64,000 nt of DNA, from positions 620,001 to 684,000 of the forward strand of contig LVEI03000001.1 of assembly GCA_001595385.3 (NCBI GenBank), given 5' to 3'. Below the pieces are notes generated by a model. That model ran no database searches. It saw only the letters and a list, made by a program, of their open reading frames with translations, and was not told the origin of the DNA. Both the position numbers and the translations under genes were made by a program. Origin of the DNA: Deltaproteobacteria bacterium GWC2_55_46 (GTDB taxonomy: Bacteria > Desulfobacterota > GWC2-55-46). This document shows, piece after piece, positions 2,385-23,998 of the stretch (position 1 is its first letter; every line of letters begins with the position of its first letter).

Positions 2385-2771
2385 TTATTTCTCCCCTCCC
2401 TTGACGGGAGGGGACTGAGGGGAGGGTGACCTGGATATTTCCTCCCAGATAGATCTCAAAACATTCTCGGTATCTTTAAGGACCTCGTTATTCCAGAAAC
2501 GGATAACCTTGAAGCCTCTGCTTGCAAGCCAGCGTTCTCTTTCCTTATCTTTTGAATTCGAGGCGTGCTGCCCGCCGTCTATTTCAATGACAAGCTTTCT
2601 CTCGAAACAGACAAGATCAACGATATAACTTCCAATCCGCGCCTGTCTTCTGAATTTCAGTCCATTAATCTGCTTAGACCTTAGATGCCTCCATAACATG
2701 GTTTCAGCATCTGTCGCTTTTTTTCTCAGATTCCTGGCGAGTGCGGTTAAAATTCCCTCTTTCACCCTCAC
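2385..2771 (-). CDS. DUF559 endonuclease-like protein (PD-(D/E)XK fold)
   Basis: A 128-residue protein of the DUF559 group, related to very-short-patch-repair-type nucleases. The early block TDAETMLWRHLRSKQINGLKFRRQ and the core GSYIVDLVCFERKLVIEIDGGQH show the Asp...Glu-x-Asp/Gly-Gly-Gln-His pattern of the restriction-like fold, followed by RGFKVIRFWNNEVL. The biological role of the family is unclear. Its start and its last ~12 residues (PSPQSPPVKGG) are encoded by copies of a short genomic repeat, and a third copy lies just upstream. The gene splits argD from argF and looks like a later insertion that does not break the operon orientation. Confidence 0.8.
   Translation of the reverse strand: MRVKEGILTALARNLRKKATDAETMLWRHLRSKQINGLKFRRQARIGSYIVDLVCFERKLVIEIDGGQHASNSKDKERERWLASRGFKVIRFWNNEVLKDTENVLRSIWEEISRSPSPQSPPVKGGEK
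2391..2428. repeat. Short palindromic repeat, copy 1
   Basis: A C-rich then G-rich unit, CTCCCCTCCCTTGACGGGAG followed by GGGACTGAGGGGAGGGTG. It overlaps the 3' end of the DUF559 gene and encodes its proline-rich tail. The copy at 2852-2889 matches it at all but one position. Confidence 0.85.
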
Positions 2772-2801
2772 CCCTGCCCTCTCCCGTCAAGGGAGAGGGT
2801 G
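2763..2801. repeat. Short palindromic repeat, variant copy 2
   Basis: A diverged relative reading CACCCTCACCCCTGCCCTCT then CCCGTCAAGGGAGAGGGTG. It can fold on itself and overlaps the start of the DUF559 gene, so that gene is bracketed by repeat units. Confidence 0.7.
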
Positions 2802-2851
2802 TTTAGAACCCATTCCCAAGCTACAAAGCTTATTTCTCGCCCCTGCTTTTC

Positions 2852-2889
2852 CTCCCCTCCCTTGATGGGAGGGGACTGAGGGGAGGGTG
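2852..2889. repeat. Short palindromic repeat, copy 3
   Basis: Matches copy 1 with one change (GATGGG for GACGGG) and lies between argD and the DUF559 gene, in the same orientation as copy 1. Confidence 0.85.
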
Positions 2890-2898
2890 GAATCTCCC

Positions 2899-4110
2899 TT
2901 AAACCTTTGCCTGCCCTCCAGCCTGAGCGAGCAACGGCTCCAGTATTCCGAGCATCTCGTCGACTTCCTTCTCGGTCACGATGAGGGCCGGGATGAAGCG
3001 GAGCACTTTATCGCCCACGCAGTTTATGAGAAGGCCCTTGGCAAGGCATTCCTTCACTATATCGCCGCCCTTTATGCCCTCGGCCAGTTCCATGCCTATT
3101 ATGAGCCCCTTGCCCCTGACCTCTTTTATGAAGCCGTACTTGTCCTTGAGGCCATTTAACTTGCCGGTCAGATACGCACCCACCCTTTTGCAGTTATCGA
3201 GGACGCCATCGTTGATGGTAGTCCTTAAGGCCGCGATCCCAGCCGCCGTCGCCAGCGGGTTTCCTCCGAAGGTCGAGGCGTGGGTGCCTGGGACGAACGC
3301 AGACATGACATCATCTATAGCGAGCATCGCGCCTATGGCTACTCCGCCCGCAAGCCCCTTGGCAAGAGTCATGATATCGGGGGAGGCCCCATAGTTCTCA
3401 TAGGCAAATAACGTCCCTGTGCGGCCAACGCCCACCTGCACCTCGTCGAATATGAGGAGCGCCCCAGCCCTTTTGCAGAGCTCTTTCAATTCCCTGAAGT
3501 AATTATCAGAGGGCACGTTCACCCCGCCCTCGCCCTGTATCGGCTCGACCATAATAGCGGCGGTCGTGTCATTTATGGCCCTCTTCGCGGCCTCTATGTC
3601 GTTAAATGGCACGTAAATGAACCTCTCAAGGAGGGGCTCGAAGCCTGCCTGATACTTCTTCTGCCCGGTCGCCGCGAGCGCCGCGAAGGTGCGGCCGTGG
3701 AAGGACTGCTCCATGGTGAGTATCTGGTGCCTCCTCTGCCCCTTGTCGCTAAAGTACTTTCTCGCGAGCTTCAGGGCCGCCTCGTTGGCCTCTGCCCCCG
3801 AGTTGCAGAAAAAGACCCTGTCAGCGAACGAATTCTCCGTGAGTATCTTCGCAAGCTCTGACTGTGTCTCTATGTGATAGAGGTTTGATACGTGTATGAG
3901 CTTCTCGGCCTGCGCCTTTATGGCCGCGACGACGTTCGGATGGCAATGGCCGAGGTTACAGACGGCGAGGCCTGATACGAAGTCGAGGTACTCTTTCCCG
4001 TCAGCGTCCCAGACCCTGGTGCCCTTGCCCCTGACGATTGATATCGGAAATCTGCCATAGGTATTGGCGACGTGCTTTGCGGTAAGGCCGATTATTTGAG
4101 CGTTCGACAA
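2899..4110 (-). CDS. argD: Acetylornithine aminotransferase
   Basis: PLP-dependent class III aminotransferase that converts N-acetylglutamate semialdehyde to N-acetylornithine using glutamate. The 403 residues show the expected blocks: CNSGAEANEAALKLAR near 105, FHGRTFAALAATGQ near 140, FDEVQVGVGRTGTLFA near 222, and MTLAKGLAGGVAIGAM with the Schiff-base lysine near 250. Translation starts at TTG (4110) with GAGAGG 6 bases upstream. It follows argB by 16 bases. Some ArgD enzymes also act on succinyl-diaminopimelate; the arg context favours the arginine role. Confidence 0.94.
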   Translation of the reverse strand: MSNAQIIGLTAKHVANTYGRFPISIVRGKGTRVWDADGKEYLDFVSGLAVCNLGHCHPNVVAAIKAQAEKLIHVSNLYHIETQSELAKILTENSFADRVFFCNSGAEANEAALKLARKYFSDKGQRRHQILTMEQSFHGRTFAALAATGQKKYQAGFEPLLERFIYVPFNDIEAAKRAINDTTAAIMVEPIQGEGGVNVPSDNYFRELKELCKRAGALLIFDEVQVGVGRTGTLFAYENYGASPDIMTLAKGLAGGVAIGAMLAIDDVMSAFVPGTHASTFGGNPLATAAGIAALRTTINDGVLDNCKRVGAYLTGKLNGLKDKYGFIKEVRGKGLIIGMELAEGIKGGDIVKECLAKGLLINCVGDKVLRFIPALIVTEKEVDEMLGILEPLLAQAGGQAKV

Positions 4111-4126
4111 CTTAGACCTCTCTTTT

Positions 4127-4984
4127 CTATTTCTTAAGCCCTATTGCAGTTCCGACACCAGCGTCGGTAAAGACCTCAAGAAGGACCGCGTGCTCGACCC
4201 TGCCATCGATTATATGGGCCCTCCCGACGCCGGAGGCGACAGCGTCCATGCAACACCGGAGCTTGGGTATCATGCCTCCTACCGCGACCTTCTTCGTGAT
4301 TAGCGAACGGGCCTCTGAGAGCGTTAGCGCCGAGATGAGCTTCTTCTCCTTATCGAGTACACCCGCGACGTCTGTGAGGAGTATGAGCTTTTCGGCCTTA
4401 AGAGCGGCTGCGATCTTCCCTGCTACCGTGTCGGCGTTTATATTGAAGCTCTCGCCCTCCTCGTCACCGCCGACAGGGGCGATGACGGGGATAAAATCGC
4501 TCTCCTCGAGGACGCTTATGACGCTTGCATCTATCGACTCCACGTCACCCACAAAGCCCATCTCCTCGCCCTTTATCTTGAGCCTCTTGGCCTTGATCAA
4601 CCCGCCGTCCTTGCCGCCGAGGCCCACGGCCTTTCCGCCGAAGTGGTTTATGAGGCCGACTATCTCTTTATTAATCTTGCCCATGAGGACCATCTCTACC
4701 ACGTCCATGGTCTCGTCGTCGGTTACACGTATGCCCTTTACGAACCTCGATTCCTTGCCGAGCCTGGTGAGAAGTCCGCCTATCTGCGGCCCCCCGCCGT
4801 GGACTATAACGGGGTTTATCCCGACATACTTCATGAGGACGACGTCCCTGGCGAAACTCTTCTTGAGCCCCTCGTCGACCATCGCGTGGCCGCCGTACTT
4901 TATGACGATCGTCTTGTCGAAGAACTTCCGGATGTACGGGAGAGATTCGAATAGCGTCCTTATCTTCTCAATATTCTTCTGCAC
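4127..4984 (-). CDS. argB: Acetylglutamate kinase
   Basis: Phosphorylates N-acetylglutamate with ATP, the second and often feedback-regulated step of arginine synthesis. The 285 residues include IKYGGHAM near 30, [12 protein letters not shown] near 62, [15 protein letters not shown] near 180 and [12 protein letters not shown] near 200, all typical of the amino-acid kinase fold. The start is GTG at 4984 with GGAG 7 bases upstream. A terminator-like hairpin with an 8-base T run ends only 13 bases before the start, leaving no room for a promoter downstream of it. The N-terminal helix [17 protein letters not shown] is the type linked to arginine-sensitive hexameric enzymes. Confidence 0.94.
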
Positions 4985-12800: not shown

Positions 12801-14249
12801 CTACTGGACTGTAGCCTTTCCCGCCGGCGCGCTCAAGTGCGCGGCGGCCATGGGCAGGCGTACCGTAAAGACAGAACCCTTGCCAAGGACGCTTTCAACA
12901 TTTATCGTGCCCCCATGGGCCTGGGCTATCTCCTTGCAGATAGATAGCCCCAGCCCAGCCCCGCCGACCGTGCTTGTGCGGGCCTTGTCCACCCTGTAGA
13001 ACCTGTCGAATATATATGGAAGGTCCTCAGCCGATATGCCAGCCCCGGTGTCGCGGACGCTCAGGACCGCCTTTCCCGCCTCTTCACCCAGACGAAGCTC
13101 CACCCGCCCGCCACTGGGCGTGTATTTAATGGCGTTATCGATGAGGTTAAAGACGAGCTGTCCTATCCTCACAAGGTCCCCGTTCACGACGGCGGGCTTA
13201 TTCTCAAGGATATCCAACTGAACAGCGCTGTCAAGGGCCCGCCTCCTGAGCTGATCGATCCTCTCCTGCACCACCCTGTCGAGGTCGACCCGCTCCCGGG
13301 CAGTGGCCCCCTTTTCAACGTCCATCTTCGCGAGGTCGAGGAGGTTCCTTACTATGTAGCTCATCCTGTCTATCTCTTCGAGCCCTGATGAGAGGACCTC
13401 TTTCATGTACTCAGGGTCGCTCTTGGACCTGAGGGCTATCTCCATCTCGCCTTTCAATATCGTAAGCGGGGTCTTAAGCTCATGGGAGGCGTCGGCCGTG
13501 AACTGGCTTATCTGTTTGAAAGACTTCTCGAGCCTTTCTATCATCTCATTTATAGTGGATGCGAGCCTGCCGATCTCGTCCTGCGGCCCTGTTATCTGTA
13601 TGCGCTCGTTGAGGTTTTCGGCCTCTATCCTCCTGGCGGCCTCGGTTATGTCGGCAACCGGCTTCAACGCCTTTTTGGCCAGGAACCACCCGAGAGCGCC
13701 AGCCACGAAGACAGAGGCGAGTATGGCCGAGACGAGTATATACGCGAGAGAATGCAATATCTCGTCCATGCCCTCGAGAGACGAGCCGACCTGGACGATC
13801 GCGACCAACCCCTTGTCCTTGAAGGCTATGGGCTTTGTCACGACCCGCACGGGATACCTGCCCATGTTCTTTACTATCTCGAAGGTGGTAGCCCCGCCGA
13901 TTGCCGCGTGATATGTCCCCTTGGTGAGAGACATCCCGAAGCCCTGGAGGTTGGACGACCTTGCGACTATCTGCCCGTGCGCGTCAAGGACCTGTATGTA
14001 ATTGCCGGCTGTCCTGATCCCAAAAAACCGCTCAAGTATTATGTCAAAGTTCCTGGGCAGGAAGAGCTCTCCCGAAGGCCTTATGATGGTATGGACCATC
14101 ATGTTGGCGACCGAGCTTATCTGGTTGTCCGTCCGGTAGATGATTATCTTGGAAAGCGAATAAGAAAAGGCGGCTCCGAAGGCGATGAGGCTTACGAAGA
14201 GAAGGGAGGTGTACCAGAAGGTAAGCCTTGTGCGTATTGAAAAGTTCAT
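12801..14249 (-). CDS. Membrane sensor histidine kinase
   Basis: A 482-residue two-component sensor of the CusS/heavy-metal type layout. TM1 is at ~13-35, a periplasmic region spans ~36-165, TM2 is at ~168-190, then HAMP, the H-box FTADASHELKTPLTILKGEM with the phospho-accepting His, N-box NLIDNAIKYTP, G1 VRDTGAGIS, F-box YIFDRFYRVD and G2 GGAGLGLSIC. No response regulator gene adjoins it, which is unusual for this class. It follows the Crp/Fnr gene by 66 bases in the same direction. The signal sensed is unknown. Confidence 0.9.
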   Translation of the reverse strand: MNFSIRTRLTFWYTSLLFVSLIAFGAAFSYSLSKIIIYRTDNQISSVANMMVHTIIRPSGELFLPRNFDIILERFFGIRTAGNYIQVLDAHGQIVARSSNLQGFGMSLTKGTYHAAIGGATTFEIVKNMGRYPVRVVTKPIAFKDKGLVAIVQVGSSLEGMDEILHSLAYILVSAILASVFVAGALGWFLAKKALKPVADITEAARRIEAENLNERIQITGPQDEIGRLASTINEMIERLEKSFKQISQFTADASHELKTPLTILKGEMEIALRSKSDPEYMKEVLSSGLEEIDRMSYIVRNLLDLAKMDVEKGATARERVDLDRVVQERIDQLRRRALDSAVQLDILENKPAVVNGDLVRIGQLVFNLIDNAIKYTPSGGRVELRLGEEAGKAVLSVRDTGAGISAEDLPYIFDRFYRVDKARTSTVGGAGLGLSICKEIAQAHGGTINVESVLGKGSVFTVRLPMAAAHLSAPAGKATVQ

Positions 14250-14316: not shown

Positions 14317-15030
14317 TTACTGGCTTATCTCCTTGAGCTTCGAAAGGGACTTTATGATGATCTCCTTCCTCTTTATATCAAGGATCCCGTCTTCCTTGAA
14401 GCTCTTAAGGAGCCTTATGGAAGTCTCCTGGGTTATCCCAAGGAGCTCCGCTATCTCAAGCCTGGAGAGGGTAAGGTTGAGCTTTACCGCGCCGTCGGAC
14501 TTGACGCCGTACTCCCCGGCGAGCGTGTAAAGGAGATGGGCGAGCTTCTCCCTGGCGTTAAGGAGCCCAAGGTGGCCTATCCTCTCGTAGGCGGCATTCA
14601 GCTCCTTGCCCATCGAGATGATGAGCTTCTTGGCGATAGACGGCTCCTCCTCGAGTATCTTGAAGAAAGCGTGCCTGTCTATGTAGCAGAGGTCGCACTC
14701 ATCCATGGCCACGGCGGTATTCTTGTAGGTGCGCGCGTTATAGAAGACCTCGAAGCCCAGGAGGTCCCCTGGGTCCAGTATGCTTATTATCTGCTCCTTA
14801 CCGGTCGAGGAAGACCTCACCACCTTGATCCTTCCGGCCCTGACTATATAGATGCCGTTGCAGTCGTCCCCTTCCATGAAGACCACCTCGCGCTTCTTGT
14901 AGCGGTTTATTATCACCGCCTCCTTGAAAGCCTCGAGCTGCGCGATATTCAGTCCGGTAAAAAGGGCATTCTCCTTTATGTGGCACCTGCAAAGCGAACA
15001 GACCGACTCTTTGTCTACTTCTGTCGTCAT
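14317..15030 (-). CDS. Crp/Fnr-family transcription regulator with an N-terminal Cys cluster
   Basis: A 237-residue regulator: an N-terminal extension, a cyclic-nucleotide-type beta-barrel (~24-130), a dimer helix, and a C-terminal winged helix with LSRLEIAELLGITQETSIRLL as the HTH. The N-terminus has Cys11, Cys14 and Cys16 (VCSLCRCHIKENALF), and the barrel has Cys112 and Cys115 (DECDLCYID). FNR uses three N-terminal Cys plus one barrel Cys for an O2-labile [4Fe-4S] cluster, so oxygen or NO sensing is plausible, though Cys spacing differs. It overlaps the upstream hydrolase gene by ATGA. It could act at the FNR-like box near 63475. Confidence 0.85.
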   Translation of the reverse strand: MTTEVDKESVCSLCRCHIKENALFTGLNIAQLEAFKEAVIINRYKKREVVFMEGDDCNGIYIVRAGRIKVVRSSSTGKEQIISILDPGDLLGFEVFYNARTYKNTAVAMDECDLCYIDRHAFFKILEEEPSIAKKLIISMGKELNAAYERIGHLGLLNAREKLAHLLYTLAGEYGVKSDGAVKLNLTLSRLEIAELLGITQETSIRLLKSFKEDGILDIKRKEIIIKSLSKLKEISQ

Positions 15031-16556
15031 CTCATCCCCTCTATGCTCGCGAGCCCTCCGCCCGAAAGCTCGCCGAACGGAAAGCCGCCCCTGTACGGCA
15101 CGACGGCGAGGCTTACGCCGCGCGCGCCCTTTATCTCCCTTATAAGATCGACTACCTCCTGGTCCGCAAGCGGCTTCCCTGTCCTCCAGTCAACGGTCTG
15201 GACCTTTATTAGGACCCTCGCCGGGTCTCCTACGGCCCTCGACGCGTCCCCGACCATCTTAACTATCATGTCCCTGATCTCCGGGGCGCTCTTCTCAAGC
15301 TCCTCCCCCATCTGCCTGTGGTAGGCCATGATGGAAAAATAGTCGAAGTCCGACATAAGGGCTTCGTTCAGGTCCTGTGAAAGCCAGGCAAGGGCGTATG
15401 GAGGGTTTACTATGCTCTCGTACATGAGGTTGATCGCGAACATGGCCTGTGGGCGCTTGTACTTTACAACGGCCTTGAGCCTGTCGGCCACCCGCACCAG
15501 GTGCCTGTTCTTCCAGGAGGCCCACCTCCAGAAAAGCCCGGTATAATGCACCGGGCCGCCTTCCGGCTCCCGTATGTAAAGCGCCTCTGGGTCAAGCCCT
15601 GTCCCGGTCTCTTTCTCAAAAAGGGCGGCAGCCGCCTCGCCAAACCCCTCGTTGTGCCTCATCACAAGGTCGTCCTGAAAAAGGACGCCGTCTATTTCGT
15701 GGGAAGCGAGATCCGAGTATATGCCCTCAAGCCTCTGGACCGCCCTTTCATTGAAGAGGTCGAGCCCCTTGCACCTGCCGTAACCCATCTTCTGAATATC
15801 ATAAGATACGCAGGCAAGCCCTTCGTCGTCCTCTGCCCCATAATCGGCGTACCGGGTGGTCATCCACGCGAAGACCTTAAGCCCTTTTGAATGGGCCATC
15901 TCTATGACCCTGGGGAGAAAGTCGTCTACGACAGGGGCGTATGACGTTTTGAAGTAGACCCCGCGCTTATTTGAGGGCTTTGCCGCCGGATAGAACCTAT
16001 CGCCCTGGTTGTGGAAGGCCCTGACTATTATGGTATCGACACCGGCGCCGGCAAGGCTTTCAAGTTCGCTTTCGACCTCGGCATAGGTCCTGCCCTCAAA
16101 GAGCATCACCTGCACCGCCCTTAGATACGGCCGCTTCTCCCTGTATATTTCAGGCAGCGGCTGAGGGGCGGCCTTCTTAAGCTTGTCCCTGGCCTCCTGC
16201 ATCTTTATCTCGGCCACTATGGCGAAGGGGCTGTCGACGAAGTTTGATATGAAAAGGCGGAACTGCCCCTCTGCCTCGCTGTACCTGCCAGAGTACAGAT
16301 AGGCCTCGGCCATCCTGAACTGGGCTTCAGAGATGAGCGGGCTTCCGGGAAAGCAATCGATGAACCTGCCGAACTCACGCGCGGCGGTCTGATAGTCCCC
16401 CTCGTCCATCAGGAACCTGGCGTAATTGAACTGGCCGAGGTCCGTGAAATACGGGGCCCTTGTTGCGGCGCCAGCCACCCTCGTCCATGCAAGGAGCAAA
16501 AGGATCAGCAAGGCAACTGCTGCCGGCCTTATCTGAGCGCGTTTGATATCTTTCAA
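15027..16556 (-). CDS. TPR protein fused to a PgaB-like glycoside hydrolase domain
   Basis: A 509-residue exported protein. A signal peptide (~1-30, hydrophobic core AVALLILLLLAWT) is followed by two or three TPR-like repeats (~38-120; FARFLMDEGDYQTAAREF type), then a TIM-barrel-like domain from ~145. The block GVLFQDDLVMRHNEG matches the acidic active-site strand of the C-terminal hydrolase domain of PgaB, which cuts poly-N-acetylglucosamine, and YFSIMAYHRQM and VKVQTVDW-type strands follow. The deacetylase domain of PgaB is absent. No pga synthase lies nearby, so the substrate is unknown. TTG start with AGGAG upstream; ATGA overlap with the Crp/Fnr gene. Confidence 0.8.
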   Translation of the reverse strand: MKDIKRAQIRPAAVALLILLLLAWTRVAGAATRAPYFTDLGQFNYARFLMDEGDYQTAAREFGRFIDCFPGSPLISEAQFRMAEAYLYSGRYSEAEGQFRLFISNFVDSPFAIVAEIKMQEARDKLKKAAPQPLPEIYREKRPYLRAVQVMLFEGRTYAEVESELESLAGAGVDTIIVRAFHNQGDRFYPAAKPSNKRGVYFKTSYAPVVDDFLPRVIEMAHSKGLKVFAWMTTRYADYGAEDDEGLACVSYDIQKMGYGRCKGLDLFNERAVQRLEGIYSDLASHEIDGVLFQDDLVMRHNEGFGEAAAALFEKETGTGLDPEALYIREPEGGPVHYTGLFWRWASWKNRHLVRVADRLKAVVKYKRPQAMFAINLMYESIVNPPYALAWLSQDLNEALMSDFDYFSIMAYHRQMGEELEKSAPEIRDMIVKMVGDASRAVGDPARVLIKVQTVDWRTGKPLADQEVVDLIREIKGARGVSLAVVPYRGGFPFGELSGGGLASIEGMR

Positions 16557-18033: not shown

Positions 18034-18061
18034 TTGACAAAGATGGCAGTTTTGTTATCAT
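18034..18061 (+). promoter_or_regulatory. Promoter for the HEAT/HD-GYP operon
   Basis: TTGACA (18034-18039), a 16-base spacer, TATCAT (18056-18061). It falls inside the longest open frame of the downstream gene, which argues that translation begins later, at 18091. Confidence 0.65.
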
Positions 18062-18090: not shown

Positions 18091-19662
18091 ATGTCTGTAG
18101 AAATTTCAAATTACGCCACCATACTAATTGAACTCGTTAAGGCTGTCAAGATGCACAATTTCTACCCGCAGGGGCATCCGCAGCTCGAGTCCATCATCGA
18201 AAAATCTTATCTCGCCCTCAAAAAAAGCATCGACACAGCCGGGGAGTTCAAGTGGCGCATAGACCAGCGCGGCTTCTACTTCGAGAAGTTGCCGCTTGCG
18301 CCGGGGAACGCCGAGATAGCCGGGCTTGCCAAAAAACTCTTCTTCAGGCGCATAAAAGAGATCACCTTCCTTGCTCAACTGGACATGAACGACATAAAGG
18401 TATTCCTATCGGCGGTAAACGCCGAGCCCGAGGAGATACAGGCTAAAGGCGGCGTAGAGGCGTTCTTCGCCTCTCTTGACATAAACGGCATCCTCCTGAA
18501 CGAGCAGCGCTACGAGGACATAAAGAAGCTCAAAAACGAGCTCGAGGCAAAAAAAGAAGCGGAGAAGGCAGCCGCTGAAGAAAAACAGGAGCAGCCAGCC
18601 GGAGAGTCTGAAAAGGCCCAGGAGGAGCAGGAAGAAAAGCCGAAAGAAGAGGTAAAACAAGACTCTCTTGAGACGCTTATAAGCAAGATACGCGGAGAAA
18701 AAGACGACTTGAGGTACAAAGACCTCTCCGCCAGGATAACAGAGCTGCTTACCCAGGGGAAGGCGGAAAGCGTCTATCCATGTCTCATCGTCTTCTACGA
18801 GCATACACTCCCGGCCTCCGGGCGGAGCGACTTCATAAAGAAGACCGCCCTTGAAGGTATTAAAGGCCTGCTTACGAGGGAGATGCTTAAATTCCTCGCG
18901 TCAAGAATAGGCGCTAAACAGGAGCACAACCGCGCCGCGGCGCAGAACATCCTCGTATACGCCGGAGACGAAGGGGCGCAGGCGCTCCTCGACGCCATCA
19001 TCGAAGCTCAGGATGCCATGGCGCGCAGATACATCTTTAACGCCCTTGTCATCTTTGGCGGTCGTATCAGGCCGCTTATCGAGGCACGGCTCGATCATCC
19101 TGAATGGTACGTGGTCCGTCAGATGGCCGCCCTTTTGGGGGCCATAGGCGGCCCGGAGGCCATGGACGCCCTTGAGACCGCTTATAAAAACCCGGAGCTG
19201 AGGGTCAAAAAAGAGGTACTGAAGAGCATGGTAAAGATACGCACCCCGAGGGTGACCGAGTTCCTTCTGAAAGCGCTTGGTGAGGAAAACCAGTCGCTCG
19301 TTGCGCAGGCCATAATATCGCTTGGCATAATCAAAGACCCGTCGGCGGTCGAACCGCTCGCCGAGCTTGCCTTCAAAAGAGAGGCCTTCTCAGATGCCTC
19401 CGAGACCAGCAAGGAAGCTGTAAAGGCCCTCGGCATAATAGGCGACACAAGGGCCGTCCCGCATCTTGAGAAGATACTTTTCAGGACGGTCTGGTTCGGG
19501 AAGAAGGCCAACGATGAAGTAAGGTCGCTCGCGGCATATTCCCTTGGGTTGATCGGCACCACTGAGGCCCTGGACGCGGTAGACGCCGTTTACGCGGAAT
19601 CGACCGGCGAGCTGCACATGGCCTGCAAGAGGGTGCTCGACGGGAGAGAAAGGACCTCATGA
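18091..19662 (+). CDS. HEAT-repeat protein with a YPxGHP N-terminal domain
   Basis: A 523-residue cytosolic protein of unknown function. Residues ~1-130 form a domain containing HNFYPQGHPQLES; ~140-200 is a charged Glu/Lys/Gln linker; ~205-520 is built of HEAT-type helical repeats (for example ARRYIFNALVIFGG, DHPEWYVVRQMAALLGAIGG, ALGEENQSLVAQAIISLGII, SLAAYSLGLIG). HEAT arrays usually scaffold protein contacts. I start at the ATG 18091 because the upstream TTG (18034) is part of a promoter. The N-terminal domain resembles that of the HD-GYP protein encoded next, with which it overlaps by ATGA. Confidence 0.8.
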   Translation: MSVEISNYATILIELVKAVKMHNFYPQGHPQLESIIEKSYLALKKSIDTAGEFKWRIDQRGFYFEKLPLAPGNAEIAGLAKKLFFRRIKEITFLAQLDMNDIKVFLSAVNAEPEEIQAKGGVEAFFASLDINGILLNEQRYEDIKKLKNELEAKKEAEKAAAEEKQEQPAGESEKAQEEQEEKPKEEVKQDSLETLISKIRGEKDDLRYKDLSARITELLTQGKAESVYPCLIVFYEHTLPASGRSDFIKKTALEGIKGLLTREMLKFLASRIGAKQEHNRAAAQNILVYAGDEGAQALLDAIIEAQDAMARRYIFNALVIFGGRIRPLIEARLDHPEWYVVRQMAALLGAIGGPEAMDALETAYKNPELRVKKEVLKSMVKIRTPRVTEFLLKALGEENQSLVAQAIISLGIIKDPSAVEPLAELAFKREAFSDASETSKEAVKALGIIGDTRAVPHLEKILFRTVWFGKKANDEVRSLAAYSLGLIGTTEALDAVDAVYAESTGELHMACKRVLDGRERTS

Positions 19663-20990
19663 ACGGAGATAACAGGGACGGCATACTCAAGAACATAAAC
19701 GCCGGGCTCAAGAGCAAGAAGCTCTACCCGCCGGGCCACCCGTCCATAGCGGCCCCGGTGAACAAGGTCTACGCGCTTCTCATGGACGAGCTCAAGATGA
19801 ACAACAACATAGCCGTGGCCATCGTGAACGATGCGCTCATCTACGAGGACGACCTCGTGCCTGACGCCGAGAAGCTCTACGCCGACATCATCCAGAACAT
19901 GGGCGCGAGGAATGTGGACGCCATCATCTTCGAGAAGGGCCTCTCGCAAAAGGAGATATCATCTCTTTTCGACGTGCTCTCCGGTTCCAGCCTCCAGGGG
20001 CAGCAATTGCAAAAGGAGATGCACTCGAAGGGCATAACCCACATCACCCTCAAGTCCGTGCCCATGGGCAGGAAGAACATCCTTGAGGTATACAATGGCG
20101 CGGTAGAGGTCGTAAAGAACGTAATGGGCGAGATAAGGATGGGGAAGATACCCGAATCCGAGCCCATCGACAACATCGTAAACGAGATGGCGGAGACGGT
20201 CTTCTCCGACCCGAACGCCATCATAGGCCTCACGATGATAAAGAACTACGACAACTACCTCTACAACCATTCGGTGAACGTCTCGATACTTTCGCTTTCG
20301 CTTGCCAAGTCCATGGGCCTTTCCGACGAAGAAATACACGACGTGGGCGTCGGCGCGCTCCTCCACGACATAGGCAAGACCGGGGTATCCGAGCAGATAA
20401 TAAGGAAGCCGGGGGGATTAAGCTCCGAGGAGTGGGAGAAGATAAAGGAGCACCCTCTTCTTGGGTCGAATATAATAAAGAGGATGGACGGGATGAGCGA
20501 CGCGGTCGGCAGGGTCATCTTCGAGCACCATATAAAGTACGACCACACCGGCTACCCGCAGACGACGTCAAAACTCCATCCCTTGAGCCAGATAGTCACG
20601 GTCAGCGACGCCTATGACGCGCTCACTACTTTAAGGGTATACCAGAAGCCACACGACCCTGTCGACGCGGTCAAGGTATTGAACAGCTTCTCTGGCAGGC
20701 ACTTCAGCCCCGATATCCTCAAGGCCTTCACGAACATGATGGGCATGTACCCGGTGGGCACGATGGTCAGGCTTTCGACTAACGAGGTCGGGGTGGTCAC
20801 GAAGCTCAATAGCGAAATACCCGCGAGGCCCGTGGTGAAGGTTATTTACGGCGCTGACGGGATAGAGCTGGATACCTTTTTAGAGGTCGACCTTTCAAAC
20901 GACGCGACAAGGGAGATCGTCACGAACGTAAACCCGGCCACGACCTCTACAGACCTGGCCGCGTTCTTCGAAAAAGAGGCGGCTGAGTAA
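19659..20990 (+). CDS. HD-GYP domain protein (probable cyclic di-GMP phosphodiesterase)
   Basis: A 443-residue protein likely to hydrolyse c-di-GMP. The N-terminal ~140 residues hold KKLYPPGHPSIAAPVNKVYALL, like the upstream HEAT protein. The HD-GYP domain (~170-370) has YNHSVNVSILSLSLA, the HD metal motif GALLHDIGKTGV, HPLLGSNII, FEHHIKYDHTGYP and SDAYDALTTLR. The signature tripeptide is TGYP, not the common GxGYP. A short C-terminal beta domain (VGTMVRLSTNEVGVV) follows. No transmembrane segment is seen. It ends just before a strong terminator. Confidence 0.88.
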   Translation: MNGDNRDGILKNINAGLKSKKLYPPGHPSIAAPVNKVYALLMDELKMNNNIAVAIVNDALIYEDDLVPDAEKLYADIIQNMGARNVDAIIFEKGLSQKEISSLFDVLSGSSLQGQQLQKEMHSKGITHITLKSVPMGRKNILEVYNGAVEVVKNVMGEIRMGKIPESEPIDNIVNEMAETVFSDPNAIIGLTMIKNYDNYLYNHSVNVSILSLSLAKSMGLSDEEIHDVGVGALLHDIGKTGVSEQIIRKPGGLSSEEWEKIKEHPLLGSNIIKRMDGMSDAVGRVIFEHHIKYDHTGYPQTTSKLHPLSQIVTVSDAYDALTTLRVYQKPHDPVDAVKVLNSFSGRHFSPDILKAFTNMMGMYPVGTMVRLSTNEVGVVTKLNSEIPARPVVKVIYGADGIELDTFLEVDLSNDATREIVTNVNPATTSTDLAAFFEKEAAE

Positions 20991-21010
20991 AAAGAGTTTA
21001 TCAATAGCAA

Positions 21011-21041
21011 AAAGGCAGGCCGATTGGCCTGCCTTTTTTTT
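21011..21041 (+). terminator. Bidirectional intrinsic terminator
   Basis: AAAGGCAGGCC and GGCCTGCCTTT form an 11-bp stem with loop GATT, then TTTTTTTT on the plus strand. The minus strand also continues with five T, so it can serve the tiny minus-strand frame at 21051-21092 too. Confidence 0.85.
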
Positions 21042-22113: not shown

Positions 22114-22677
22114 TCAGCGGTCCATCACTCCAAGGCCCCTCAAGGCTAAGCTCCTCATCCTGGGGTTGCCCTTTGTGGCGAAATAGAGCAAGGCCTCTTC
22201 CGCCCGCTTGTCACCTATCTTTGAAACCGCCTCAAGGGCGCGCTCGACCACGCCGCTGTCCTGGTGCTTCATCGCCTGCACCAGCGGTCCCAGAAGCCTC
22301 GAGTCCTTGAATAATGTCATGGATTCTACCACCGCCCTCACCACTATCGGGCTCTGGTCTTTCAACGCCTCGACAAGGGCGGGTAAGGTCGACGGGTCGC
22401 CGAGGGCGCCAAGCGCCCTCGCGGCGGCGGCCCTCACGTCTTCGGCCTGGTCATTTAGCGCAGCCGACAAGAGCTCGGCTATCTTCGCCCCCTTAAGCTC
22501 GGAGAGCGCGTAGATGACCCGCACCTTCTCGAGCATCTCGCCGGACCCTACCTTCCTGGAGAGCATCTCAAGCCTGTCGCGCGCCTCAAGCTTTTCAAGG
22601 GCTTCGGCTGCCGCCTTCCTGACATCTTCGTCCGCGTCCTTCAACGCCGCGAGCAGTGCTTCTTTCCTCTTGTCCAT
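22114..22677 (-). CDS. Small HEAT-repeat protein
   Basis: 187 residues made almost entirely of about five HEAT or Armadillo-like helical repeats, for example DADEDVRKAAAEALEKL, DQAEDVRAAAARALGALGD, DQSPIVVRAVVESMTLF and HQDSGVVERALEAVSKIGD. No enzyme motif or signal peptide. I chose the ATG at 22677, after the trmFO stop; an open frame continues to 22719 over the trmFO end but would start at TTG. It is probably co-transcribed with trmFO. The repeat length and Asp-Val-Arg pattern resemble phycobilin-lyase-type HEAT proteins, but no function is implied. Confidence 0.8.
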   Translation of the reverse strand: MDKRKEALLAALKDADEDVRKAAAEALEKLEARDRLEMLSRKVGSGEMLEKVRVIYALSELKGAKIAELLSAALNDQAEDVRAAAARALGALGDPSTLPALVEALKDQSPIVVRAVVESMTLFKDSRLLGPLVQAMKHQDSGVVERALEAVSKIGDKRAEEALLYFATKGNPRMRSLALRGLGVMDR

Positions 22678-22702
22678 GCGATAATCTATATCAGAAGAGG
22701 GC

Positions 22703-23998
22703 TCAAGTTGCAAGGGCAACGTCCCTCCATTTCGCGAACTCGTCTATCGCCCTTCTCGCCTGCTTCTCGCGCCTGTCCTTTCCGGTAAGCGGAGGCAGAA
22801 GGCCCATGTTCGCGTTCATCGGTGAGAACTCTCCATCCTTGCCAGAAATGTACCTCATCAAAGCCCCGGATATCGTAGTCTCAGGCGGGCAGACGGCTTC
22901 AAGCCCCAATGCGGCCCTTAACGCGTTTATCCCGGCGAGCGCCCCTGACATGGCAGATTCGCAGTAGCCCTCGACCCCGGTTATCTGCCCGGCAAAGAAT
23001 ATGCCAGGAGAGGACTTAAGCTCCTGCGCCTCGGTGAGAAGGCGGGGAGAGTTGATGTAGCTGTTCCTGTGGAGCTTTCCAAGTCTGGCGAACTCGGCAT
23101 TCGCCAACGCCGGGATCATCCTGAAAATCCTTTTCTGCTCAGGGAACTTGAGCCTCGTCTGAAATCCTACGAGGTTATATAAAGTCCCTTCCAGATTTTC
23201 TCTTCTCAACTGTACAACGGCAAAGGGGCGCTTGCCTGTGGCGGGGTCGGTAAGGCCGACAGGGCGCATGGGGCCGAAGAGCAGGGTCTGTGCGCCGCGC
23301 TGGGCCATTACCTCTATCGGCATGCAGCCCTCGAAGCTCGCCATATCCTCGAACTCGTGCTTCCGGGCGGTGTCGGCTTTTATAAGCTCGGCGTAGAAGG
23401 CATCGTACTCGTCTTTCGAGAGCGGGCAGTTTATGTAATCATCCCCGCCCTTCCCGTAGCGGGAGGCGCTGAAGGCGCTTCGCATGTCGATAGATTCGGC
23501 ATAGACGATAGGCGCTACAGCGTCATAGAAATTCAGATTCTTCCCGACAAGCCCTTCTATCGCATTGGCAAGACCGTCAGAGGTCAAAGGCCCTGTGGCG
23601 ACAATAACAGGGCGCTCAGCAGGCAACGCCTGCACCTCTCCCCTTCTTATCTCGACACCCGCGCGCTCAAGCTCCCCTGTCACAAAGGCGGAAAACGCGC
23701 TCCTGTCCACAGCGAGCGTCTTCCCGGCAGGCACCCTGGTCTGGTCCGCGGCCTTTATGATTATAGAATCAAGGAGGCGCATCTCTTCCTTTAATATGCC
23801 GGAGGCGTTCTCGATGCTTTCGGACTTAAGAGAGTTGCTGCAGACAAGCTCCGCAAGGGTAGCGAGACTGTGCGCCGGAGAGTAGCTCTCCGGCTTCATC
23901 TCGAATACTACCGCCCTGCCGCCGCGCCTTACTGCCTGCCAGGCCGCTTCAGCCCCGGCAAGCCCGCCGCCCACTATGATTATCTTCTTTTCGCTCAT
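22703..23998 (-). CDS. trmFO: Methylenetetrahydrofolate-tRNA-(uracil-54) methyltransferase TrmFO
   Basis: Flavoprotein that makes ribothymidine at tRNA position 54 using methylene-THF and FADH2. The 431 residues begin with the FAD-binding [20 protein letters not shown], then [37 protein letters not shown], and [23 protein letters not shown] near the C-terminus. Start ATG 23998 with GGAGAAG upstream; the longer frame would begin at TTG 24010. In many Firmicutes and Deltaproteobacteria trmFO sits beside xerC; here it is 15 kb away. Confidence 0.96.

Follow-up and report, generated by a model that had tools for sequence, protein, structure and literature searches.

A HEAT-repeat protein and an HD-GYP protein with a shared N-terminal domain are encoded by a recurrent gene pair in Desulfobacterota

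The 64,000-nucleotide stretch of DNA analysed here (the window) is taken from contig LVEI03000001.1 of Deltaproteobacteria bacterium GWC2_55_46, assembly GCA_001595385.3, positions 620,001-684,000 of the forward strand. On its plus strand it encodes a HEAT-repeat protein directly followed by an HD-GYP protein, and both proteins begin with the same type of domain, called the YPxGHP domain here after its motif. The pair probably works as one unit and is recurrent in many genomes of the phylum Desulfobacterota. That this unit serves signalling by cyclic dimeric guanosine monophosphate (c-di-GMP), with the two proteins associating most likely through their shared domains, is an interpretation to which we give about an even chance.

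The first open reading frame (ORF) occupies 18091..19662, from an ATG at 18091 to the stop codon at 19660-19662. Its 523-residue product consists of the shared N-terminal domain (residues 1-150, 18091..18540), an acidic linker and a HEAT-repeat solenoid (residues about 188-523, 18652..19659). The second ORF (19659..20990) starts with the ATG at 19659, has its stop ending at 20990 and encodes 443 residues, with its own copy of the shared domain (residues 1-145, 19659..20093), a linker helix, an HD-GYP catalytic domain (residues about 193-360, 20235..20738) and a C-terminal beta segment. The stop of the HEAT gene and the start of the HD gene overlap in the sequence ATGA (19659..19662). Pfam models match the C-terminal part only of either protein: HEAT_2 (E = 2.1e-26) and HEAT_PBS in the first, HD_5 (1.9e-20, above the cut-off) and HD (1.3e-16) in the second. 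Residues 184-523 of the HEAT protein model match HEAT/ARM structures with Z 14-20.

The N-terminal domains of the two proteins are homologous, and probably represent an old, duplicated domain of about 135 residues. Compared directly by BLASTP they are identical at 25 of 115 positions (22%; E = 5e-5 for a single comparison). A profile of 43 HEAT N-termini matched a profile of 45 HD N-termini over 132 collinear columns (probability 98.8, E 7.9e-17) with a score of 100.5; none of 21 scrambled controls, 20 with permuted columns and one reversed, scored above 18.2. Furthermore, genome searches recover both copies. An earlier reading of the locus, made from the sequence alone, had proposed a shared N-terminal domain of about 130 residues, holding FYPQGHP in one protein and LYPPGHP in the other, together with the ATGA overlap. 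Motifs and overlap are confirmed at the level of the ORFs (residues 24-30 of the HEAT protein and 22-28 of the HD-GYP protein), and the comparison of N-terminal profiles, which that reading had named beforehand as its refuting test, gave the significant similarity reported above.

The fold of the domain is predicted from two separate full-length AlphaFold2 models, with a mean predicted local distance difference test score of 85.9 for the HEAT protein and 87.6 for the HD protein. Within residues 1-165 the order of elements is alike in both models: helix, helix, two or three strands, helix, strand, two or three helices, strand and a long helix, with the YPxGHP turn sitting between the first two helices. 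The linker of the HEAT protein, residues 167-189, is modelled with low confidence. A mixed alignment of 26 sequences from the class shows no variation at the Y, P and H of the motif, and its G and second P reach 90%.

An operon-like unit of the HEAT and HD-GYP genes is well supported. The class sample comprised 59 searched genomes, nine of which were left out on account of fragmentary, weak or absent HD matches; the 50 that were examined gave 53 locus entries, three being second entries of a genome. The HEAT gene precedes the HD gene in 49 of these 50 genomes, and the lone miss starts at a contig end. Both genes lie on one strand at all 45 measured loci. The spacing between them, with start codons picked by script, is -32 to +12 bases at 41 of the 45 loci and an exact 4-base overlap at 22. 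HD_5 matches 37 of 37 HD orthologues from the class, and HEAT_2 and HEAT_PBS match 35 of 35 HEAT orthologues. The genome of GWC2_55_46 itself has two copies of the domain at E below 1e-46, both in the adjacent pair described here; a third match, at 0.296, was taken as noise.

Among 297 genomes sampled from the phylum, a first profile found the domain in 117 and a wider one in 121, 109 of the 121 having at least two matches. Outside the class, 70 loci from 61 genomes were read; they were selected, not drawn at random (20 with paired-looking hits, 40 with atypical or other ORF lengths and 10 from single-hit genomes), so that the counts are no frequencies. At 46 of these 70 loci, in 42 of the 61 genomes, an HD-GYP protein comes second, after a domain or HEAT protein, and the reverse order was never seen. 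The first partner has a recognised HEAT region in 44 of the 46 pairs (40 genomes), the repeats being weaker or unrecognised in some first partners; in one pair it is a HEAT protein that the contig end truncates. At two loci the first profile failed to detect the N-terminal domain of the HD partner, which was identified by eye, and as both sequences went into the wider profile, their later match is circular. The recurrence of the pair suggests that the two proteins work together. A scan of contigs with a single class sequence returned five close relatives and a tblastn search of plasmids gave no match; confinement of the domain to this phylum is not claimed.

The domain is also found fused to other effectors. 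Six proteins of 1181-1456 residues, at five loci, have the order GGDEF, AAA_16, YPxGHP domain and HEAT, with two tandem copies of the domain in five of the six. Two of these proteins lie side by side at one locus, and at another the AAA_16 match is below the cut-off. The ATPase-like region between the cyclase and the HEAT scaffold looks unusual. Four more proteins, with open frames of 953-1690 residues, have the order domain, HEAT, cNMP and PilZ, including two nucleotide-binding domains; all four come from one genome family, and each is the sole copy of the domain detected in its genome. Because of the GGDEF-AAA and cNMP-PilZ fusions, the domain-HEAT module appears to belong with c-di-GMP signalling. 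At a further locus, L122, a frame of 752 residues (2728-4983, minus strand) has the domain and no Pfam match; the ORF beside it begins GRGAMGVVYTAYQ, which we take to resemble the glycine loop of a Ser/Thr kinase.

Scans of 54 N-termini against Pfam-A and NCBIfam at E up to 0.01 gave no consistent family match, the stray matches being to one NCBIfam and two Pfam families, each in a single member. Domain profiles A3 and A4 gave only short, implausible matches in the PDB (designed proteins and cytochrome fusions), and a viral structure library gave no match at E <= 0.001. When the HEAT model was searched with VIA and Foldseek, matches to the solenoid took up the lists. The YPxGHP domain thus seems to be without a catalogued family in Pfam or NCBIfam, though it is present in 121 of the 297 sampled genomes. 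DUF3391 (PF11871) was considered as a candidate; it matched 6 of 37 full-length HD proteins weakly (best E 0.0042). The 54 N-termini lacked it at E up to 0.01, and where it was placed, in 2 of 10 scanned members, it covered residues 143-168 only, at 13.2 and 13.7 bits against a cut-off of 27.8. This is the linker helix; by sequence, the N-terminal domain is not recognised as a DUF3391.

The HD protein looks like an HD-GYP enzyme of the binuclear kind, with an activity and substrate that are predicted. The HD alignment had 80 rows, from which three non-HD proteins were set aside to leave 77, and a second set comprised 14 further HD proteins. The residues H204, H236, D237, H265, H290, H291 and D317 (H, HD, H, HH, D), which we take to be the seven metal ligands of solved HD-GYP structures, are present throughout both sets (77 of 77 and 14 of 14), hence in all 91 HD proteins. 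In the GYP triplet (G298-Y299-P300) the G is kept in 76 of the 77 and Y and P in all; the second set has GYP in 14 of 14. The DG of HHExxDGxxGYP is not conserved in the 77 proteins. R326 and Y328 are found in 77 of 77, whereas in the second set R326 is replaced once by K and Y328 once by W, and the position after this R-x-Y is Q in 64 of the 77 and R or K in 13 of the 14. Four residues before the ligand H204 there is a tyrosine, Y200, in 77 of 77 and 12 of 14, at what is presumably the position of the third-metal glutamate of PmGH. In profile searches the catalytic domain matched PmGH (E 7.8e-32), PA4781 (1e-17) and DvhD (4.2e-13). The genome of GWC2_55_46 has 12 GGDEF matches, and a search with the whole HD protein gives eight at E up to 1e-10, one of them the protein itself, which makes a c-di-GMP network likely. 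Small and mostly beta in the model, the segment after the HD-GYP domain comprises residues about 367-425 (20760-20930, plus strand); a KOW-type model was matched weakly, at some position in the protein, by 6 of 37 HD orthologues.

In a tree of 158 domain copies, HEAT-type and HD-type copies separate, the best node sorting 149 of 152 correctly; one such split puts four of five GGDEF-type copies on the HD side. The tree is most simply read as an old duplication whose two copies were retained as partners. Over 36 loci, a mirror-distance test gave RadA-corrected partial correlations of 0.459, 0.398, 0.297 and 0.223 for the four cross-protein pairs. The highest is that between the two domains, and the lowest two are those of HEAT-region distances with HD-protein distances. 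For coupling between the domains this result is suggestive only.

We propose that translation of the HEAT and HD genes would be coupled, and that the two proteins would then associate via their duplicated N-terminal domains. In the HD protein, the helices after the domain lead into what appears to be a phosphodiesterase domain. This enzyme could be switched when the HEAT protein docks or when the paired N-terminal domains sense a signal, control presumably running in that direction, while the HEAT arm may bind a further target and so place the enzyme there. Binding through the shared domain is plausible, given that the domains are duplicated paralogues, that the cyclase proteins have tandem copies and that the domain-domain pair had the highest partial distance correlation. 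The scaffold-enzyme module of the sequence-only reading is supported as a two-gene unit by order, strand, spacing, recurrence, kept residues and fusions, whereas its proposal of pairing through the shared domain goes beyond these results. The HEAT scaffold and c-di-GMP phosphodiesterase of that reading agree with the HEAT_2 and HD_5 matches and the kept ligands, with hydrolysis of c-di-GMP predicted from sequence. The survey that it suggested, for the pair and for other effectors, found both: the pair recurs in the phylum, and fusions to GGDEF-AAA, cNMP-PilZ and a histidine kinase occur.

A wider and more tentative speculation, which we would sooner expect to fail than to hold, is that the YPxGHP domain, as a dimerisation or sensor domain, together with a HEAT arm forms a phylum-wide c-di-GMP hub that is wired alternatively to a phosphodiesterase in trans, a cyclase in cis or a receptor in cis. 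If so, the same scaffold would link the making, the breakdown or the reading of c-di-GMP to a single target bound by the HEAT arm. The pair bears on the question of how an HD-GYP enzyme is directed to a single pathway among several: in 49 of 50 examined class genomes and, with HEAT recognised, in 40 of 61 selected genomes outside the class, the enzyme is accompanied by a neighbouring scaffold whose N-terminal domain is paralogous to its own input domain. The choice of partner is directly testable with two small proteins, and the GGDEF and PilZ fusions make a built-in prediction of the role of the domain.

Several observations weigh against the proposed unit or its mechanism. No pair was detected at 24 of the 70 loci outside the class. 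Five of the 24 hold the GGDEF-AAA_16 fusions, four the cNMP-PilZ fusions and one a histidine kinase; one has an HD protein alone, in a genome with pairs elsewhere, and the others comprise longer domain-HEAT proteins in stretches that lack an HD gene, proteins that match no Pfam domain, fragments and contig ends. The first partners of two pairs are without recognised HEAT repeats, the first gene of another locus is broken up (a frame of 264 residues with no Pfam match), and one class genome rated 100% complete is without the domain. The motif weakens in a wider set of 54 copies, with zero invariant columns and at least 90% conservation for Y alone. The best splitting node of the tree has a support of 0.19, and another node with support 0.86 places 148 of 152 copies. 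In the mirror-distance test the domain-domain and domain-catalytic pairs are not separated, the former exceeding the latter in 234 of 400 bootstraps. I, L, M or V replaces the glutamate of HHE in 73 of the 77 and 12 of the 14 HD proteins, which leaves substrate and rate uncertain. Finally, deletion of DUF3391 is described as leaving the activity of some HD-GYP proteins unchanged (PMC12943098), which speaks against N-terminal control if DUF3391 and the YPxGHP domain are alike.

The shared domain might be a ligand-sensing input domain like PAS or GAF, with the Y-P-x-G-H turn in the binding site and both proteins answering the same ligand without any need for contact. We regard this as rather unlikely, while giving it real weight: the outputs attached to the domain are unrelated to one another (HD-GYP, HEAT, GGDEF-AAA, HEAT-cNMP-PilZ and, at one locus, a PAS-HisKA-HATPase histidine kinase that also fits a ligand sensor and so tells against a partnership domain), and the Y, P and H of its motif are invariant in the 26-row alignment. 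In addition, the linker helix of 2 of the 10 scanned members weakly matches the last helix of DUF3391, a domain proposed as a sensor (PMC12943098). However, the pairing, the constant order, the split of the tree into two types and the lack of further detected copies in the genome of GWC2_55_46 fit a partnership better, and the 54-row set lacks any invariant column. Sensing and partnership do not exclude each other. The complex could also form via other surfaces, with the HEAT solenoid on the HD-GYP domain and the shared domains only homodimerising; HEAT/ARM solenoids commonly bind partners along the solenoid, which counts in favour of this arrangement. PA4781, an HD-GYP protein, is moreover reported as dimeric (PMC3774798). 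The HEAT-region distances, on the other hand, correlate least with those of the HD protein (0.297 and 0.223), which is a weak test. We find such an arrangement improbable.

It is slightly less probable again that the enzyme is no c-di-GMP phosphodiesterase, and hydrolyses another cyclic dinucleotide such as 3',3'-cyclic GMP-AMP (3',3'-cGAMP) or only binds. The change of HHE to HH[ILMV] and the Q after R-x-Y would fit this, and the cGAMP enzyme V-cGAP3 is among the structural neighbours. The presumed ligands kept in 91 of 91, the Y-P of GYP in every member of both sets, and the fusions to GGDEF and PilZ, usual c-di-GMP domains, argue against it. Bd1817, another structural neighbour, is reported to be inactive, but it departs at two canonical ligands, unlike the HD proteins here (PMC3774798). 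The last alternative is a mere tandem duplication of an input domain beside two unrelated outputs that are together by chance. The flanking genes look housekeeping (radA and trmFO, by eye), with no functional link to the pair evident. The survey of the phylum makes this explanation one that we hardly credit, as the pair recurs in constant order in 42 of 61 genomes outside the class, where the flanking genes are unlike those within it.

The surroundings of the pair were compared at 75 pair loci (44 in the class, 31 outside), with genes named by eye. A radA-like gene is divergent upstream at 41 of them, three being outside the class, and a trmFO-like gene lies downstream at 31, all in the class. 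Convergent to the pair in the window is a gene for a small HEAT-like protein of 201 residues, by eye (22114-22719, minus strand), the cluster of which is the convergent downstream neighbour at 37 of the 75 loci, 11 of these outside the class; HEAT repeats can merge unrelated genes in such a cluster. A sigma-70-like promoter match, TTGACA-16-TATCAT (18034..18061, plus strand), ends 29 bases 5' of the HEAT start codon. It agrees with the consensus at 11 of 12 positions and has TG before the second hexamer; this is a consensus match only, and two such sites occur in the region against 1.8 expected by chance. A hairpin resembling an intrinsic terminator, with 13 pairs and then a T run, follows the HD stop (21009..21038, plus strand); likewise a consensus match only, it is the sole one on the plus strand among eight such patterns on both strands of the region, where 4.2 were expected. 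Further away, the ORF list shows an exported-looking protein of 509 residues (15027-16556, minus strand) with tetratricopeptide-like repeats and then a second domain, by eye, adjoining genes for a CRP/FNR-like regulator (14317-15030) and a sensor kinase (12801-14249), both also named by eye.

Among known systems, the HD-GYP proteins with DUF3391, such as Bd1817 (3TM8), are alike in having an uncharacterised N-terminal domain in the same place before the HD-GYP domain. Bd1817 is the best VIA match of the HD model (Z 25.7, 219 residues, 2.8 A, model residues 85-362), with a second entry at Z 22.6 (242 residues, 4.0 A, from model residue 55); PmGH has the better Foldseek E-value. The VIA alignments to Bd1817 begin at model residue 55-57 or 85, so that the first two helices of the shared domain, with the YPxGHP turn, precede the aligned range. 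DUF3391 has been described as a possible sensor that also occurs with other outputs (PMC12943098). PmGH (4MCW), PA4781 (4R8Z) and DvhD (9RBZ) resemble the HD protein in the catalytic domain and differ in having another input domain, whereas the proteins here have Y200 before H204 and mostly HH[ILMV]. Bacterial HEAT-repeat proteins of the HEAT_2 or PBS-lyase type share the solenoid of the first protein, which is set apart by its N-terminal domain and its recurrent HD-GYP neighbour. No description of a HEAT/HD-GYP pair sharing a domain was found in full-text searches of one open library, a scope that leaves out most subscription papers; within it, the view of the sequence-only reading that the module is not described holds. 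Phosphodiesterases such as RpfG form c-di-GMP complexes with PilZ or GGDEF partners. The pair described here would likewise be a local complex of a c-di-GMP phosphodiesterase and an adaptor, but this adaptor would be a HEAT protein whose N-terminal domain is paralogous to the input domain of the enzyme.

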